DNA of 64,000 bases. Source: Rubrobacter xylanophilus. Its GTDB lineage: Bacteria > Actinomycetota > Rubrobacteria > Rubrobacterales > Rubrobacteraceae. A program made the position numbers and the translations under genes. Of the stretch, positions 16,929 through 41,828 are shown one piece after another. Under the pieces are notes generated by a model. That model did not search any database and was not told where the DNA came from. It was given only the letters and a program-made list of their open reading frames with translations. The first letter of the stretch is position 1. Each line of letters begins with the position of its first letter. The stretch lies in contig NZ_AP019791.1 in the NCBI RefSeq assembly GCF_007164525.1, forward strand, positions 607,501-671,500. The letters run 5' to 3'.

Positions 16929-17642
16929 TCACGTATCCGGAGACACATGTCCTGCGAGCTTCCTCAGCAGCTCCGGGTCCCGCACTACGAGCCTCCTGTC
17001 AGAGACGGCGACCGCCCCGCTCTTCTGCAGCCTCCCGAGGGCCTTGGTCACCGCCTCTCGGTTGGCCCCGATCATGGAGCCCAGCTGGCGGTGGGTGTAG
17101 CGGAAGGGGATCCTGTACCCCTCCTGGGTGACGACCCCCTCCTGCTCGGCGAGGCGCGCAAGCAGCGCCGCGAGCCGCTCGGTGACGCCCCGAGAGGCCA
17201 TCTCGGCCAGCCGTTCCTCCCGGTCGCGCAGCCGCCGGCTGAGCAGCTCCACGAGCCGGATCCCCACCTCCGGGTGCTCCCTTATGAGGCGCCGCATCTC
17301 CTCCTTGCCGATCACCGAGACCTCCGCCGGCTCCAGCGCCTCCGCATACGCACCCTGCCGACTGCTCTCGGTGAGCGACGTCTCCCCGAAGATCGTTCCG
17401 GGACCCACCACCGCCAGGGTGAACTCCCGCCCACCGATGATCTTGTAGAGCCGTACCCTCCCCTCGTGCAAGAGAAACAGCCTGTCCGCCGGATCGCCGG
17501 GCGCGAAACACAACTCCCCCCGGTCCAGCCGAAAGGCCGCCAGACGCCAGTTGAGCCGCTCTATCTCCTCCCTCGGTAGCGGCTCCAGAACGTCCACGAG
17601 GGAGAGCCTGCGGGCCCGCTCTTCCCAGCGCCCAGAACGCAA
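16929..17642 (-). CDS. Crp/Fnr-family transcriptional regulator
   Basis: The protein has 237 residues. The N-terminal cyclic-nucleotide-binding-like beta roll includes FAPGDPADRLFLLHEGRVRLY and GTIFGETSLTE, in place of the canonical GELALL...R-A-A cAMP pocket. A long dimer helix follows, then a C-terminal Crp-type winged helix (YTHRQLGSMIGANREAVTKA). There are no N-terminal Fnr cysteines. The effector is unknown. The start is uncertain: TTG 17642 gives the full domain, and GTG 17595 is an alternative. It is divergent from the metallophosphoesterase-like gene across an AT-rich spacer. Confidence 0.88.
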   Translation of the reverse strand: MRSGRWEERARRLSLVDVLEPLPREEIERLNWRLAAFRLDRGELCFAPGDPADRLFLLHEGRVRLYKIIGGREFTLAVVGPGTIFGETSLTESSRQGAYAEALEPAEVSVIGKEEMRRLIREHPEVGIRLVELLSRRLRDREERLAEMASRGVTERLAALLARLAEQEGVVTQEGYRIPFRYTHRQLGSMIGANREAVTKALGRLQKSGAVAVSDRRLVVRDPELLRKLAGHVSPDT

Positions 17643-34776: not shown

Positions 34777-35946
34777 ATGACCGCGGAGAAGAGCGCAGTA
34801 TACCTGGACAACGCCGCCACCACCCCTCTGGACGAGCGGGTGCTCGGGGCCATGCTCGAGGGCCTGAGGGGGCTGCGCGGCAACCCCTCGGCGCTGCACG
34901 CCCCGGGGGCCGACGCCCGGGAGGCGATAGAGGAGGCCCGGGAGGGGGTGGCCGCCCTGATAGGTGCCTCCCCCGAGGAGGTGGTCTTCACCTCCGGCGG
35001 GACCGAGGCGGACAACCTGGCCCTCTTCGGGCTAGCCCGTTCCGCCCCGTCCCACAAGCGGCACGCGGTGATCTCGCGGGTCGAGCACCCGGCGGTGCGG
35101 GAAGCCGGGCGGCGGCTGGAGGCCGAAGGCTTCGAGGTCACCTGGCTCGGGGTGGATGGGTACGGGCTGGTGGACCCGGGGGCATTCGAGGCGGCGCTCC
35201 GGGAGGACACGGCGTTCGCCGCGGTGATCTGGGCTAGCGACGAGGTCGGCAGCGTCCAGCCGGTGGGGGAGCTGGCGGCGGCGTGTGCGGAGCGCGGCGT
35301 TCGCTTCCACGCCGACGCCGTGCAGGCGGCCGGACGGCTCCCGGTTGACGTGGGGGAGGTGCCGGTGAGCACGCTGGCCCTCTCCGCCCACAAGCTCTAC
35401 GGGCCGCAGGGGGTGGGGGCTCTCTACGTGCGGGAGGGCGCTGAGCTCTCCCCCCTCGTCCTGGGCGCCGGCCAGGAGCGGGGTCTGCGCAGCGGCACCG
35501 AGAACGTCGCGGCCATCGCCGGGTTCGGGGTCGCGGCCCGGCTCGCGGCCGGAGAGCTGGAGGAGCGGGCCCGCCACGAGCGCGCGCTGCGGGACAGGAT
35601 CCTCGCCGGCGTCCGGGAGATGGAGGGCATCCGGGTCAACGGGCATCCCAGGGAGCGGCTGCCGAACAACGTGCACCTGACGGTCGAGGGGGTGGAGGCC
35701 GAGGGGCTCGTGCTCTTCCTCGACGCGCTGGGGTACGCCGTCGGCAGCGGCGCTTCCTGCTCCTCCGGCGGCCACAAGGCCTCCCCCGTCCTGCTGGCGA
35801 TGGGTCTCGGCGAGCGCGAGGCCTTCTCCTCGATCAGGGTCAGCGTGGGCAAGGACAATACTCCCGAGGAGATCGACGGCTTTCTTGCGGCCTTCCGTCA
35901 GGCCGTCGGCCGGCTGCGCGAGCTCTCCCCACTGCAGGCGGGGTGA
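34777..35946 (+). CDS. Cysteine desulfurase (NifS/IscS class)
   Basis: This PLP enzyme (389 residues) takes sulfur from cysteine as a persulfide. Landmarks are LDNAATTP at the N-terminus, His104 over the PLP ring, Lys206 binding PLP (SAHKLYGPQG), and the mobile-loop Cys328 in GSGASCSSGG. The usual VNNEIG block reads ASDEVG, so Asp155 replaces the Asn that normally contacts the PLP phenolic oxygen. It lies 3 nt upstream of the IscU-like::MnmA fusion, which makes it the likely sulfur donor for 2-thiouridine. Confidence 0.95.
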   Translation: MTAEKSAVYLDNAATTPLDERVLGAMLEGLRGLRGNPSALHAPGADAREAIEEAREGVAALIGASPEEVVFTSGGTEADNLALFGLARSAPSHKRHAVISRVEHPAVREAGRRLEAEGFEVTWLGVDGYGLVDPGAFEAALREDTAFAAVIWASDEVGSVQPVGELAAACAERGVRFHADAVQAAGRLPVDVGEVPVSTLALSAHKLYGPQGVGALYVREGAELSPLVLGAGQERGLRSGTENVAAIAGFGVAARLAAGELEERARHERALRDRILAGVREMEGIRVNGHPRERLPNNVHLTVEGVEAEGLVLFLDALGYAVGSGASCSSGGHKASPVLLAMGLGEREAFSSIRVSVGKDNTPEEIDGFLAAFRQAVGRLRELSPLQAG

Positions 35947-35949
35947 GGG

Positions 35950-37419
35950 ATGCCCGAGCGCTACGGTCCGCGGGTCATTGAGCACCTGGTCAACCCCCGC
36001 AACGCCGGTGAGGTCTCCGGGCCCTCCGGTGTCGGCGAGGCCGGGAACGCTGCCTGCGGGGATCAGGTACGCTTCACCCTCGCCGTGGGAGAGGACCTGC
36101 GCCTGGAGGAGGTGCGCTACCGGGCCTACGGGTGCGCCGCCTGCATAGCCGCGGGTTCGGCGCTCGCGGAGCTCGTCGAGGGCCGGACCATCATCGGGGC
36201 GGCCCGCGTCTCGCGGGGGGAGCTCCAGGAGGCGCTCGGCGGGCCGCTCCCGCCGGGCAAGGAGCACGGCGTGACCCTGGCGCTCGACGCGCTGCACCGG
36301 GCCTTCGAGGACTACTGGAGCCGACAGGGGGACGCGCTGCTCGCCGGAGACGGCTTCGGGGACGGAAGCGGCGGGCGGCGGGGGGTCGTCGCCGCGATGA
36401 GCGGCGGGGTGGATTCCGCCGTCACCGCGCTGTTGCTCAAGGAGCGGGGTTACGAGGTGGTGGCGGTGACCTTCCGGCTGCACGACGGGGAGCCGGGCAG
36501 CCGGTCTTGCTGCTCGCCGGACACCGTGCTCTTCGCCCGGGAGACGGCCCACCAGATGGGCATCCCGCACTTCACCCTCAACCTCAGGGAGCTCTTCGAC
36601 CGGCGGGTCATGCGGGACTTCGTCGGGTCCTACGCCGCCGGCAGGACCCCCAACCCCTGCGTGGCCTGCAATGCCCACGTCAAGTTCCACGCGGCGGCCT
36701 TCCTCGCCGACCGGCTGGGGCTGCGGCACGTGGCCACCGGGCACTACGCCCGGGTGGGGGAAGGGCCGTGCCTGGAGCGTCCGGAGGACGGGCGCAAGGA
36801 CCAGACCTACGTCCTCTGGCCTGTCCCGCGGGAGCTGCTCGGGCGCACCATCTTCCCGCTCGGGGACTACCGCAAGGACGAGGTGCGCAGGATGGCCGAG
36901 GAGCGGGGGCTCGCCGTGGCCCGGACGCCCGAGAGCCAGGACATCTGCTTCATCCCCGACGGGGACTACCGCTCCTTTGTCCGGCGCCGGGTCAGGAGCG
37001 AGCCCGGGGAGATCGTGGACCGGCGGGGGCGGGTGCTGGGTCGCCACGCGGGGGTCGTGAACTTCACCGTAGGGCAGCGGCGGGGGCTCGGGGTCTCCGC
37101 CTCCACCCCGCTGTACGTGACCGAGGTGCGGCCGGAGAGCCGGCAGGTGGTGGTCGGGAGCCGGCGGGAGCTGGAGGTGCGCGAGGTGCTCGTGCGCTCG
37201 GCCAACTGGTTCCTGGACCCGCGGGAGGCCGCGCTCGTGCAGGTGCGCTACAACAGCGAGCCGGTCCCCTGCGAGGTGGAGAGGGGCGGGGACGGCTGGG
37301 AGGTGCGGCTGCTCGAGCCGGTCTTCGGGGTCGCGCCCGGGCAGTCCGCGGTGTTCTACACGCGGGATGGGACGAAGGTGGTGGGCGGCGGCATCATCGC
37401 CCGGCGGGACGCTGCTTGA
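35950..37419 (+). CDS. mnmA: Fusion of an IscU-like scaffold domain with tRNA 2-thiouridylase MnmA
   Basis: The protein has 489 residues. Residues 1-125 are an IscU/NifU-N domain (RVIEHLVNPRNAG, GNAACGDQV with C36/D38, YGCAACIAAGSALAEL with C62 and an extra C65). The third scaffold cysteine is lost: LPPGKEHGV has Gly107 where IscU has Cys106. After a Gly-rich linker (about 132-143) comes a full MnmA: the PP-loop SGGVDSA at 151-157, PNPCVACN with Cys237/Cys240, and DICFIP with Cys333. MnmA thiolates U34 of Lys, Glu and Gln tRNAs. Its desulfurase partner is the adjacent upstream gene. The RBS is GAGGG before the ATG. Confidence 0.95.
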   Translation: MPERYGPRVIEHLVNPRNAGEVSGPSGVGEAGNAACGDQVRFTLAVGEDLRLEEVRYRAYGCAACIAAGSALAELVEGRTIIGAARVSRGELQEALGGPLPPGKEHGVTLALDALHRAFEDYWSRQGDALLAGDGFGDGSGGRRGVVAAMSGGVDSAVTALLLKERGYEVVAVTFRLHDGEPGSRSCCSPDTVLFARETAHQMGIPHFTLNLRELFDRRVMRDFVGSYAAGRTPNPCVACNAHVKFHAAAFLADRLGLRHVATGHYARVGEGPCLERPEDGRKDQTYVLWPVPRELLGRTIFPLGDYRKDEVRRMAEERGLAVARTPESQDICFIPDGDYRSFVRRRVRSEPGEIVDRRGRVLGRHAGVVNFTVGQRRGLGVSASTPLYVTEVRPESRQVVVGSRRELEVREVLVRSANWFLDPREAALVQVRYNSEPVPCEVERGGDGWEVRLLEPVFGVAPGQSAVFYTRDGTKVVGGGIIARRDAA

Positions 37420-37431
37420 GGAGGTGGGGTT

Positions 37432-37821
37432 TTGGAGTTGTTCGTCGAGCTCATGAAAGGTCTGCTGTACGCGGGGATCGCTGCGGCCTTCTTTCTGCTG
37501 GCGTGGGCGTTTTTCAGGCTGGCGAGGATCTTCTCGGCCGCCGAGAGGAGCCTCAGGGAGATCTCCGAGCAGGTCGTGCCGCTCATCGGGAAGACCCACA
37601 CCACCGTCGACAACATCAACAGCCAGCTCTCGCAGCTCGACGAGGCGGTCGGGGACGTGGCCGGGATAACGGACGAGCTGGACCAGACGACCACGGTCAT
37701 AACCCGGGGCGTGAGGGGCGGGGTCATCCGGCTCTCCTCGGCCACCGCCGGGCTCTCGCGGGGCATCAGCGCGTTCCTTGGCACCAGGGCACCGGAGCAG
37801 AAGGGAGGGCGAAGAGAGTGA
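37432..37821 (+). CDS. DUF948 (YtxG-like) membrane-anchored protein
   Basis: The protein has 129 residues. One N-terminal TM helix (about 8-30, LLYAGIAAAFFLLAWAFFRL) is followed by a long helical DUF948 region (SLREISEQVVPLIGKTHTTVDNINSQL). It resembles Bacillus YtxG, a general-stress protein under SigB control. The TTG start follows GAGGAGGTGG. Its stop overlaps the GTG of the next, YtxH-like gene. The role is unknown. The position directly upstream of an RsbW-like protein and a SigB/F-type sigma factor supports a stress link. Confidence 0.85.
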   Translation: MELFVELMKGLLYAGIAAAFFLLAWAFFRLARIFSAAERSLREISEQVVPLIGKTHTTVDNINSQLSQLDEAVGDVAGITDELDQTTTVITRGVRGGVIRLSSATAGLSRGISAFLGTRAPEQKGGRRE

Positions 37822-38096
37822 AGGGCTGGGGCAAGGTGCTGACCGGGGTGCTTCTCGGGGTGGCGGGCACCGTCTACGCGACCAACGAGGAGGTGCGCCG
37901 GAGGTTGCCCGGGGCGGCCCGGGACCTGCCGGAGATCCTGCGGCGGCGCTTCCAGAGCGCGGTGGCCGCGGCCCGGGAAGCCTCCGAGAGCCGGCGGGAG
38001 GAGATCCTGCGCGAGCTGCGGGCCCGGGAGGAGGCCTCCGGGCGGGTCTCGCCGAACGGCGGGGGGGCGTCTGCGCGCGACGGGGAGGGGAGATGA
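37818..38096 (+). CDS. YtxH-like small protein
   Basis: The protein has 92 residues with a short glycine-rich hydrophobic N-terminus (VLTGVLLGVAGTVYATNEEVR) and a charged helical C-terminal region, the usual YtxH layout. It begins at a GTG overlapping the DUF948 stop (GTGA) and ends in an ATGA overlap with the next gene. In Bacillus subtilis, ytxG and ytxH are neighbours in the SigB regulon, and the same pair is seen here. Confidence 0.75.
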   Translation: MKGWGKVLTGVLLGVAGTVYATNEEVRRRLPGAARDLPEILRRRFQSAVAAAREASESRREEILRELRAREEASGRVSPNGGGASARDGEGR

Positions 38097-38371
38097 GCCC
38101 CGGGCAGACCGAGTATACCTACCTGCGGGTGCCGCCCGTCGCCGACCTGCGGGCGTGCGTGGGGCTCGTGCTGGCCGGGATGGCCGCGCGGGCCAGGATA
38201 GGCGTCGGGGGGCTGGAGGAGGCCGTGGAGCTTCTGGAGGGGTTTCATTCCGAGAGCGCTCCCACCAGCTTTCGCTTCGCGGTCTCCGGGGACACGGTCA
38301 TCGCCGAGGTCGAGGAGCCTTCGGAGGACGGGGGGAGCCGCTGGCGCACCGTGGTGGAGCTGGTCTCGTGA
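38093..38371 (+). CDS. Mini RsbW-like (anti-sigma-type) protein lacking the ATP site
   Basis: The 92 residues follow the outline of RsbW/SpoIIAB: EYTYLRVPPVADLRACVGLVLAGMAARARIGVGGLEEAVELLEGF corresponds to the first strand and helices, and FRFAVSGDTVIAEVEEP to the next strands. The N-box (EACTNAxxH in RsbW) is absent, replaced by LLEGFHSESAP, and the later G1/G2 boxes are missing. It therefore probably cannot bind ATP or act as a kinase. Its stop overlaps the sigma-factor GTG, which suggests a direct partner of that sigma factor. The similarity is by eye. Confidence 0.55.
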   Translation: MSPGQTEYTYLRVPPVADLRACVGLVLAGMAARARIGVGGLEEAVELLEGFHSESAPTSFRFAVSGDTVIAEVEEPSEDGGSRWRTVVELVS

Positions 38372-39144
38372 GCAGCGGCTACCCGCGGCCCGACAAGGCG
38401 CGGACGCGGCGGCTGCTGGAGCGTTATCACCGGGAAGGCGACCGGCAGGCCCGGGAGCAGGTCATCCAGGAGCAGCTGCCGCTCGCCGAGTTTCTGGCGC
38501 GCAAGTTCGCCGGGCGGGGTGAGCCGCTGGAGGATCTGGTGCAGGTGGCTTCCGTGGGGCTCATAAAGGCGGTGGACCGGTTCGACGTGGACCGGAACAT
38601 CGAGTTCTCCACCTACGCCACGCCCAACATCCTCGGGGAGATAAAGCGCCACTTCCGGGACAAGGGCTGGGCCATGCGGGTGCCGCGGGGGCTGCAGGAG
38701 CTCAGGCAGGCGGTGAAGGAGGCGATCCGCGAGGAGACGGTGAAGACCGGCCGCTCACCGACCATGGACGAGCTCGCCGAGCGGCTGGAGACGGACGTGG
38801 AGAGCGTGGCCGAGGCGCTCACGCTGGGGCGGGCTTACAACACGGCAAGCCTGGACGCCCCCATAAGCCAGGACGACGCCGAGGGGGACACCATCATGGA
38901 CCTGCAGGCCGACGAGAACCAGCCCATAGAGGGCATCGAGGACAAGCTCTTGTTGCAGGAGGCGATGCGCGGGCTGCGGGAGCAGCAGCGGGAGATCCTG
39001 CGGCTGCGGTTCAACGAGGGGAAGACCCAGACGGAGATCGCCGAGCGGATAGGGGTCAGCCAGATGCACGTTTCGCGGCTTTTGCGGCGGGCGCTGGCCG
39101 ACCTGCGGCGCTCGCTCTCCGAGATGGAGCACGAGCGGCACTAG
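38368..39144 (+). CDS. RNA polymerase sigma factor of the SigB/SigF/SigG type
   Basis: This group 3 sigma factor (258 residues) has region 2 (LEDLVQVASVGLIKAVDRFD, and FSTYATPNILGEIKRHFRDKGW), region 3 (TVKTGRSPTMDELAERLE) and a region 4 helix-turn-helix (KTQTEIAERIGVSQMHVSRLLRR). The GWAMRVPRGLQEL segment is diagnostic of the SigB/F/G class. It is the last gene of the YtxG-YtxH-mini-RsbW operon and starts at GTG overlapping the upstream stop. No RsbV-type antagonist is in the window. Confidence 0.95.
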   Translation: MSSGYPRPDKARTRRLLERYHREGDRQAREQVIQEQLPLAEFLARKFAGRGEPLEDLVQVASVGLIKAVDRFDVDRNIEFSTYATPNILGEIKRHFRDKGWAMRVPRGLQELRQAVKEAIREETVKTGRSPTMDELAERLETDVESVAEALTLGRAYNTASLDAPISQDDAEGDTIMDLQADENQPIEGIEDKLLLQEAMRGLREQQREILRLRFNEGKTQTEIAERIGVSQMHVSRLLRRALADLRRSLSEMEHERH

Positions 39145-39179: not shown

Positions 39180-41828
39180 ATGGAGCACATGAAGAGCGCC
39201 GAGATACGCCGCAGGTTCCTGGACTTCTTCGCCGAGCGGGACCACAGGATCTACCCGAGCTCCTCCCTGATCCCGCACAACGACCCCACCGTGCTCCTGA
39301 CCACGGCCGGGGTCCAGCAGTTCATCCCGTACTTTCTGGGGCAGGAGAAGCCGCCCCACCCCCGGGCGGCGAGCGTCCAGAAGTGCTTCCGGACCCAGGA
39401 TCTGGAGGAGGTGGGCGATCCCAGCCACCTCACCTTCTTCGAGATGCTCGGGAACTTCTCCTTCGGCGACTACTTCAAGAAAGAGGCCATCGGGTGGGCC
39501 TGGGAGTTTCTGACCGAGGGGCTCGGCATCCTCCCCGAGCGGCTGTGGGTCACCATCTTCGAGGGCGACGAGGATGCTCCCGAGGACCTTGAAGCCAAGA
39601 GGTTCTGGATGGAGGTGGGGGTGCCGGAGCACAGGATCTTCGGGCTCCCCAAGTCCGAGAACTGGTGGGGACCTGTCGGTGAGACCGGTCCCTGCGGCCC
39701 CTGCTCGGAGATCTACTACGACTACGGCGAGGAGTTCGGCCGGGGGGATCCCCTGCGGGATCCTCGCTTCGGTCCCGGCGGCGAGGAGGGCGACGCCCGC
39801 TTTCTGGAGGTGTGGAACCTGGTCTTCAACCAGTACGAGCAGCTGCGGGACGGGAGTTTGCGGCCGCTGGAGCAGACCGGGATAGACACCGGGATGGGGC
39901 TCGAGCGGATCGCGGCGGTCATGCAGGGGGTGCGCTCGGTCTACGAGACCGACCTCTACGCTCCGGTCATCGAGCGGGCCCGGGAGTACACCGGCGTCGG
40001 GCTCGGCGACGGGGAGGTCACCGACCGGGCGCTGCGCATCCTCGCGGACCACGCCCGGGGGATGGCCTTTCTCATCGCCGACGGGGTCCGGCCGGGCAAC
40101 CAGCGGCGGGAGTACGTGCTGCGGAGGATCATCCGGCGGGCCACCCGCGAGGCCTACGGGCGCTTCGGGCTCGACGCCGAAAAGATCGCCTCGCTTGCCG
40201 AGACCGTCGCCGACTACATGGGCGGTTTCTGGGGCGAGCTGCGTGAGGCGCGAGAGGAGATCCGGCGGGTCGTCAGGAGCGAGGCCGCCCGGTTCATAGA
40301 CATCTACCACTCCGGGATGCGCCTGCTTGAGGAGGAGATCTCCAGGCTCGAGGGTGGGCAGTTCCCGGGCGAGGTGGCCTTCACGCTGCACGACACCTAC
40401 GGTTTTCCGGTGGAGGTGACCCGGGAGGTGCTCGCCGAGCGCGGGATCTCGCTGGACGAGGCCGGCTTCCGCCGGGCGATGGAGCGGCAGCGGGAGCGGG
40501 CGCGGGAGGCGCTGGAGGGGCACGAGCGGGCGGTGGCCGCCTTCCGCGACATGGAGATAAAGAGCCGCTTCGTCGGCTACGAGCGGGAGCAGGTGGAGAC
40601 CAGGATACTCGCGGTCGAGCCCGTCCCGGACGCCGAGGGAGAGCTCTACCTCGTCCTGGAGGAGAACCCGTTCTACGCCACCGGCGGCGGGCAGGTGGCG
40701 GACACCGGTTGGATCTCCTCGGAGAGCGGGCAGCTGGAGGTCGTCGACGCCATCCCCGCCGGGGACTACCAGGTGCTGCGGGCGAGGGTGGAGCGCGGCG
40801 ACTTCCGGGTCGGGGACGAGGTGGTCGCCTCCATAAACCGGGTGCGGCGCCAGCAGATAGAGGCCAACCACACCGCCACACACATCCTGCACTGGGCGTT
40901 GCGGGCGGTTCTGGGCAAGGAGGTGGTGCAGGCCGGGAGCTACGTCGGGCCCGACCGGCTGCGCTTCGACTACCGCTACTCGGGACGGGTCACCGAGGAG
41001 GATCTGTCCCGCATCCAGGAGCTGTGCCTGCTCAAGATCACCGAGAACCAGCCCGTCCGCTACTACACCACCACGCTGGAGGAGGCCCGCAAGCTCGGGG
41101 CCATCATGCTCTTCGGGGAGAAGTACGGGGAGCTGGTGCGGGTGGTGGAGGTAGACGGTTTCTCGCGCGAGCTGTGCGGCGGGACCCACGTCCGGGGCAC
41201 GGCGGAGATAGGGGCGTTCAAGATCATCTCCAACCGCAAGCACGGCGCCGATCTCTACAGGATCGAGGTTCTGACCGGCCGGGAGGCGCTCTACTACCTC
41301 ACGCGGGTCACCGAGACCGCTGAGCGGCTGGCGGCCGACCTGCGGCTCCCCAGGGTTGAGGAGCTTCCGGAGGCGGTGGGCAGGCTGCGCGAGGAGCTGC
41401 GGGAGGTTCGCGAGGAGCTGCGCCGGCAGGTGCTCGAGAGAGGGCTCGAGGAGATCGGCTCGCTGGTGGAGAACGCTGAGGCCATAGACGGGACGAAGGT
41501 GGTCACCGGCCGGGTGGCCGCCGCGGACGTGAAGGACCTTCGCCAGCTCTCGGACGACGTCAGGAACCGGATCGGGGGGCCGGCTGCGGTGGTGCTGGCG
41601 GCCGACCTGAACGGCAAGGCGGTGCTGGTGGCCAACTTCCACCCGGAGGTCTCCAGGCGGGTAAAGGCCGGGGACGTGGTCCGGGAGGCCGCCGGGGTCC
41701 TCGGCGGCGGCGGTGGCGGCAGCCCGACCATGGCCCAGGCGGGGGGCGGCAACCTGGAGGCGATCCCCGCGGCTCTGGAGCGGGTGCGGCAGATCCTGAG
41801 CCGCGAGCTCTCCGGCAGCGGGGGGTGA
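39180..41828 (+). CDS. alaS: Alanyl-tRNA synthetase
   Basis: This full-length AlaRS (882 residues) has the class II catalytic domain (MKSAEIRRRFLDFF, FFEMLGNFSFGDYFKKEA, GPCSEIYYD), the tRNA-recognition helices, the editing domain with the zinc-type NHTATHILHWALR (around 563) and CGGTHVRGTAEIG (around 667), and the C-Ala domain (GGGGSPTMAQAGG). A TACAAT -10 box at 39164-39169 leaves at most a 3-nt leader. Its stop overlaps the ruvX start (GTGA). Confidence 0.98.
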   Translation: MEHMKSAEIRRRFLDFFAERDHRIYPSSSLIPHNDPTVLLTTAGVQQFIPYFLGQEKPPHPRAASVQKCFRTQDLEEVGDPSHLTFFEMLGNFSFGDYFKKEAIGWAWEFLTEGLGILPERLWVTIFEGDEDAPEDLEAKRFWMEVGVPEHRIFGLPKSENWWGPVGETGPCGPCSEIYYDYGEEFGRGDPLRDPRFGPGGEEGDARFLEVWNLVFNQYEQLRDGSLRPLEQTGIDTGMGLERIAAVMQGVRSVYETDLYAPVIERAREYTGVGLGDGEVTDRALRILADHARGMAFLIADGVRPGNQRREYVLRRIIRRATREAYGRFGLDAEKIASLAETVADYMGGFWGELREAREEIRRVVRSEAARFIDIYHSGMRLLEEEISRLEGGQFPGEVAFTLHDTYGFPVEVTREVLAERGISLDEAGFRRAMERQRERAREALEGHERAVAAFRDMEIKSRFVGYEREQVETRILAVEPVPDAEGELYLVLEENPFYATGGGQVADTGWISSESGQLEVVDAIPAGDYQVLRARVERGDFRVGDEVVASINRVRRQQIEANHTATHILHWALRAVLGKEVVQAGSYVGPDRLRFDYRYSGRVTEEDLSRIQELCLLKITENQPVRYYTTTLEEARKLGAIMLFGEKYGELVRVVEVDGFSRELCGGTHVRGTAEIGAFKIISNRKHGADLYRIEVLTGREALYYLTRVTETAERLAADLRLPRVEELPEAVGRLREELREVREELRRQVLERGLEEIGSLVENAEAIDGTKVVTGRVAAADVKDLRQLSDDVRNRIGGPAAVVLAADLNGKAVLVANFHPEVSRRVKAGDVVREAAGVLGGGGGGSPTMAQAGGGNLEAIPAALERVRQILSRELSGSGG

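Follow-up and report, generated by a model that had tools for sequence, protein, structure and literature searches.

A mini-RsbW lacking ATP-binding boxes overlaps a SigB-type sigma factor gene across the class Rubrobacteria

RsbW/SpoIIAB is the textbook example of a partner switch that depends on ATP. In the 64,000-nucleotide stretch of DNA analysed in the current study (hereafter the window), a SigB/SigF/SigG-type sigma factor gene is directly preceded by a gene for an RsbW-like protein of 92 amino acids (the mini-RsbW, or mini), and no RsbV/STAS gene is present within the four-gene cluster to which both belong (Table 1). The locus raises the question of what such a reduced protein may do for its sigma factor.

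In the window genome (3.02 Mb, Rubrobacter-like) the four open reading frames are arranged in tandem with three 4-nt overlaps, GTGA, ATGA and GTGA, confirming the arrangement described in a previous, sequence-only reading of this DNA. That reading took the fourth gene to encode a SigB/F-type sigma factor, and rightly so, as the product scores 269.1 bits over regions 2-4 against TIGR02980 of NCBIfam (cut-off 234.35) and is the sole SigB/F/G match above cut-off in the genome, the next best reaching 154 bits. The mini-sigma overlap is the only widely conserved one of the three: in 26 of 27 relatives an in-frame start codon of the sigma gene shares an NTGA with the mini stop codon, while the other two junctions are gaps in many of them. 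Downstream of the sigma gene, alaS-ruvX follows in those relatives with sufficiently long contigs. A scan of the window for the SigF-type promoter pattern GTTT-N12-17-GGGTA yielded one match (17454-17478), which is at chance level and unrelated to the sigma locus. On the upstream side, a cysteine desulfurase gene (34777-35946) directly precedes the IscU-MnmA fusion gene, in whose product an N-terminal IscU/NifU_N scaffold domain (NifU_N, residues 5-127) is joined to the tRNA 2-thiouridylase MnmA (residues 146-483), a fusion that is kept in many Rubrobacteria loci.

Table 1. Features of the mini-RsbW locus (positions in the window)
Feature	Position	Strand	Details and basis
IscU-MnmA fusion gene, upstream of the cluster	35950-37419	+	Pfam/NCBIfam domains
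DUF948 (YtxG-like) membrane protein	37432..37821	+	TTG start, 129 aa; weak PF06103 match
YtxH-like small protein	37818..38096	+	GTG start, 92 aa; by position and outline
Mini-RsbW	38093..38371	+	ATG start, 92 aa; family, fold and profile evidence
SigB/SigF/SigG-type sigma factor	38368..39144	+	GTG start, 258 aa; TIGR02980
GTGA shared by the mini stop codon and the sigma start codon	38368..38371	+	Sequence; putative translational coupling
alaS, housekeeping gene with the cluster upstream of it	39180..41828	+	alaS-ruvX order in relatives

Neither Pfam nor NCBIfam holds a model covering the mini: the window protein has no match in either database, a Pfam scan of all 28 family members returned nothing meaningful, and the open-access literature on Rubrobacter SigB or degenerate RsbW contains nothing on it. 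The family was assembled from the ORFs that immediately precede sigma factor genes related to that of the window, with no RsbW included, and the alignment of its 28 sequences has 19 invariant columns. Whole-genome searches of 39 Rubrobacteria genomes located the mini in 36, among them all 22 of the good ones, and as a rule once per genome; in 396 genomes of the phylum beyond the class only weak matches inside long ORFs were obtained, none of them convincing. With dN/dS values of approximately 0.07-0.33 between close pairs, the mini is under purifying selection across the class. When PDB sequences were searched with the family profile (hmmsearch), only low-complexity matches to TPR-like designs were obtained, and these were rejected.

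The sequence-only reading had described the mini as a minimal RsbW remnant, staking this in advance on the GHKL fold and suggesting a profile-profile comparison with RsbW, and both analyses now speak in its favour. AlphaFold2, applied to the RsbW-free family alignment, models the mini with a mean pLDDT of 91.6 and with the predicted elements beta8-13, alpha22-33, alpha41-49, beta58-65, beta68-76 and beta82-91, that is, a beta1-alpha1-(short)alpha2-beta-beta-beta topology corresponding to the RsbW core without helix 3 and lid. When this model was compared to the PDB using Foldseek, RsbW and SpoIIAB were retrieved first (best 6m36, E 1.4e-3, prob 1.0), while in VIA-align ranks 1-10 were occupied by RsbW, SpoIIAB, UsfX and Rv1364c (Z 8.9-7.1, 82-88 residues, rmsd 2.5-3.8), followed by an unrelated chain at Z 5.7. 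Z values of 7-9 would by themselves be modest, moderately above background, and the RsbW-type assignment is made because one family fills the top structure ranks and an independent profile result agrees. In hhalign, the mini profile, whose diversity is low (Neff 2.3), matched sigma-linked RsbW-like proteins with P 8.9e-6 over 77 columns and a set of 14 degenerate sigma-linked RsbW-like proteins with P 5e-5 over 71 columns. None of 150 column shuffles reached either score (best 21.5 versus 36.0 and 18.6 versus 31.8), and the reversed profile gave no match. Since the class's own unlinked full RsbW gave no signal (P 0.28), the mini groups with the sigma-linked RsbW proteins; by predicted fold and profile it is an RsbW homologue.

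The mini shares with RsbW and SpoIIAB (6m36, 1l0o, 1thn) the fold core beta1-alpha1-alpha2-beta-beta...beta, including the beta1/alpha1 dimer elements, and the placement of its gene immediately before that of a SigB/SigF sigma. It differs from them in length (92 versus about 140-160 aa), in the absence of the N, G1 and G2 boxes, the ATP lid, helix 3 and the catalytic Glu, in an invariant Gly at the place of Arg23/20, and in the absence of an RsbV gene at the locus. The N-box Asn and the G1 and G2 boxes are missing from the four minis tabulated as well as from the family alignment, in line with the earlier observation of an RsbW outline without the N-box and the later ATP boxes. In Bacillus subtilis RsbW, Arg23, Asp42, Lys44 and Glu49 contact RsbV, and beta1/alpha1 constitute the homodimer interface (PMC7340262). 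The corresponding places in the mini alignment are taken by Gly, Glu, Val and a variable residue, respectively, of which the Gly (Gly24, 38162-38164) is invariant in all 28 minis. Furthermore, the mini retains half of helix 2 and nothing of helix 3; its best-conserved part is formed by the beta1/alpha1 dimer elements. As the ATP and contact features that define RsbW are lacking, the mini is not filed as an RsbW kinase; it may still act like an anti-sigma.

In the classical pair, Arg20 of the anti-sigma pairs with Asp148 of SigF. We infer that this Asp corresponds to the D within SPED of 1l0o chain C. It lies opposite the region to which SpoIIAA Glu21 and the anti-sigma Arg bind (PMC7340262). 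In the window sigma, Ser146 (38803-38805) stands at its place, and the column holds Ser in 21, Gly in three and Asn in two of the 26 Rubrobacteria sigmas examined, being mostly Asp or Glu in outgroup sigmas, whose RsbW retain the Arg. Arg and acid are lost in parallel, and the joint disappearance of both sides of the old contact would fit a rewired pair and, equally, a contact that has been dropped. In the sigma tree the Rubrobacteria sigmas form a single clade (support 100) whose position is weakly supported, its neighbour (L050, from a Thermoleophilia MAG) being a long branch, and the tree is not used for any conclusion here.

Sigma-linked RsbW-like proteins outside the class form a graded series. 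Clostridiales relatives encoded immediately upstream of such a sigma possess the N-box and G boxes. Degenerate RsbW-like proteins of Actinomycetota, UBP9 and Armatimonadota (L041-L051, L188-L201) are, like the mini, encoded directly upstream of a SigBFG-type sigma (44-53% identity) and have lost the N-box Asn in all those listed. These proteins measure 135-143 aa in L042, L045, L048 and L049, 129-149 aa in L041, L043, L044, L046 and L051, and about 123-132 aa in the actinobacterial family f18; neither the N-box Asn nor a clear G1 is present in these sets, and Arg23, Asp42, Lys/Arg44 and Glu49 are retained. Unlike the mini, the degenerate set thus keeps the contact residues as well as helix 3 at 123-149 aa, and in some of its loci (L041, L042, L051) a STAS gene lies upstream. 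The same range of lengths, with contact residues kept, extends over L188-L201 (families f18, f49, f68 and f4 of the Actinomycetota) and L041-L051, whose proteins, absent from the literature found, are likely to be ATP-free anti-sigmas. As to gene order, that of the window (DUF948-YtxH-RsbW-like-sigma-alaS) recurs outside the class in a MAG labelled Bacillota (Centralia_MAG_97, L073), where the RsbW-like protein is full-length and longer than the mini. Family f18 shares the DUF948 neighbourhood in an operon of the form DUF948-RsbW-like(123 aa)-sigma, and the L050 locus reads DUF948-YtxH-sigma-alaS, with no RsbW-like ORF in the approximately 0.4 kb between YtxH and sigma.

As judged from these alignments, the mini is an RsbW that has been reduced twice. 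The first reduction, common to many sigma-linked RsbW-like proteins in the Actinomycetota, removed the N, G1 and G2 boxes, with the sigma/RsbV contact residues retained, and with these boxes the use of ATP and kinase activity would be lost. The second, observed in Rubrobacteria alone, took away helix 3, one half of helix 2 and Arg23, Asp42, Lys44 and Glu49, and with them the RsbV-responsive surface. Strand beta1, helix alpha1 and a sheet are left, the first two making up the homodimer interface in RsbW. On balance we favour the interpretation that the mini is a co-translated, ATP-independent, putative sigma-binding (anti-sigma) subunit, a cut-down version of the RsbW of an ancestral RsbW-SigB pair. 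In such a scheme the mini would be made together with the sigma factor via the stop-start overlap, dimerise through beta1/alpha1, and hold and inhibit the sigma independently of ATP; release of the sigma would then be governed by the mini:sigma ratio, by turnover or by some ligand rather than by RsbV partner switching.

That an anti-sigma encoded next to its sigma can do without kinase activity has a precedent in RsbW1 of Mycobacterium smegmatis, whose gene adjoins sigF (PMC7693655). Mycobacterial UsfX/RsbW1 (8jzt, 8ih8) resembles the mini, itself sigma-linked and devoid of ATP boxes, in the replacement of the N-box Asn (absent in M. tuberculosis UsfX, where the Arg is kept) and in sharing its genome with a separate kinase-type RsbW and with STAS proteins encoded at other loci; in M. 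smegmatis the kinase is the unlinked RsbW2, which possesses the N, G1 and G2 motifs and does not bind SigF (PMC7693655). RsbW1 is, however, full length, retains the Arg/Asp/Glu contacts and is switched by RsfA/RsfB (PMC7693655), a surface that the mini lacks.

RsiG is a helical c-di-GMP-binding protein with a fold unrelated to that of RsbW. As the c-di-GMP-dependent anti-sigma of WhiG, also present in Rubrobacter, it provides a non-RsbV sigma switch in the same genus (PMC8325347).

The absence of any known switch residue in the mini, the strict translational coupling to its sigma and its persistence across the class would also suit a chaperone or accessory subunit, which would bind the sigma factor to stabilise, fold or load it without inhibition. 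We regard this as unlikely, given the descent of the mini from an anti-sigma lineage and the fact that no RsbW relative is, to our knowledge, known to act in this manner.

It had also been stated that neither the ATP nor the RsbV element of the classical switch is present. This holds at the locus and fails genome-wide: a genome search revealed two full RsbW proteins, both encoded away from the sigma locus, and four STAS_2 proteins above the cut-off, and the classical switch is therefore missing from the locus only. The first RsbW gene (L001/L092) is situated beside a STAS gene, while the second (L002, C1:2515659-2516108) encodes a protein with the Arg, the Glu and the N and G boxes and is found in 34 of the 39 genomes of the class. 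The latter has no sigma or STAS neighbour and is conserved class-wide between genes that, from their sequences, appear slipin-like and trehalose-synthase-like. The window sigma factor could have an unlinked full RsbW as its true anti-sigma. The mini might alternatively be an antagonist which pairs with the unlinked full RsbW, spoils its sigma-binding dimer and so frees the sigma, a role in keeping with the conservation of its beta1/alpha1 dimer elements and with the co-occurrence of the full RsbW noted above. RsbW3 of M. smegmatis, which antagonises RsbW1, probably via heterodimerisation, is the precedent proposed there (PMC7693655); like the mini, it is an RsbW relative devoid of kinase activity and possibly working through dimerisation, but it comprises 194 aa, is not sigma-linked and does not bind SigF (PMC7693655). 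Such an antagonist appears distinctly unlikely, since the mini profile matches sigma-linked RsbW-like proteins and not the unlinked RsbW family, the stop-start overlap joins the mini to the sigma and not to the unlinked RsbW, and the partner sigma is without the acid that would meet the Arg of the latter.

In view of the many motifs lost, and of an overlap that could serve sigma translation alone, the mini might be a relic without a present role that persists within a housekeeping operon for the sake of sigma translation; its invariant columns, class-wide dN/dS values and confident, compact fold render this very improbable.

The remaining neighbours had been likened to the ytxG-ytxH pair of the Bacillus SigB regulon, a likeness that would stem from shared domains. 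The DUF948-like protein matches PF06103 with E 5e-7 and 30.2 bits, below the curated cut-off of 37.2; the YtxH-like protein has no Pfam or NCBIfam match and resembles YtxH in position, length and outline only. In the majority of Rubrobacteria loci its ORF keeps its place behind DUF948. Among 30 actinobacterial DUF948 loci, 25 have an alaS gene within 1.5 kb, mostly without such a sigma. In genus g11, mnmA is directly followed by mini-sigma-alaS, and no DUF948 was detected by whole-genome search with the window protein in its three good genomes (G025-G027, 96-99% complete). Four loci of this genus (L114, L119, L120 and L040) have DUF948 and YtxH missing between mnmA and the mini, with mini-sigma kept. 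As the DUF948-alaS linkage is general and g11 does without DUF948, the YtxG-like protein is an old alaS neighbour and not a required partner, and it probably lies outside the sigma module. Regulation of the mini by this membrane-anchored protein, as suggested from the adjacent and overlapping genes of the window genome, is for these same reasons scarcely credible.

Returning to the mini as a putative sigma-binding subunit, we propose more tentatively, as a possibility rather than an expectation, that the SigB-type sigma of Rubrobacteria is placed under a minimal RsbW core without ATP or an RsbV-responsive surface, i.e. a switchless and possibly constitutive subunit, fixed in the class, with a kinase-competent RsbW persisting unlinked. 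If true, such a class-wide descendant of RsbW, reduced to the dimer core, would reveal what portion of the fold suffices to hold a sigma factor, and the natural graded series of full RsbW, box-less RsbW and mini would provide a means to test when control by ATP and by RsbV was lost.
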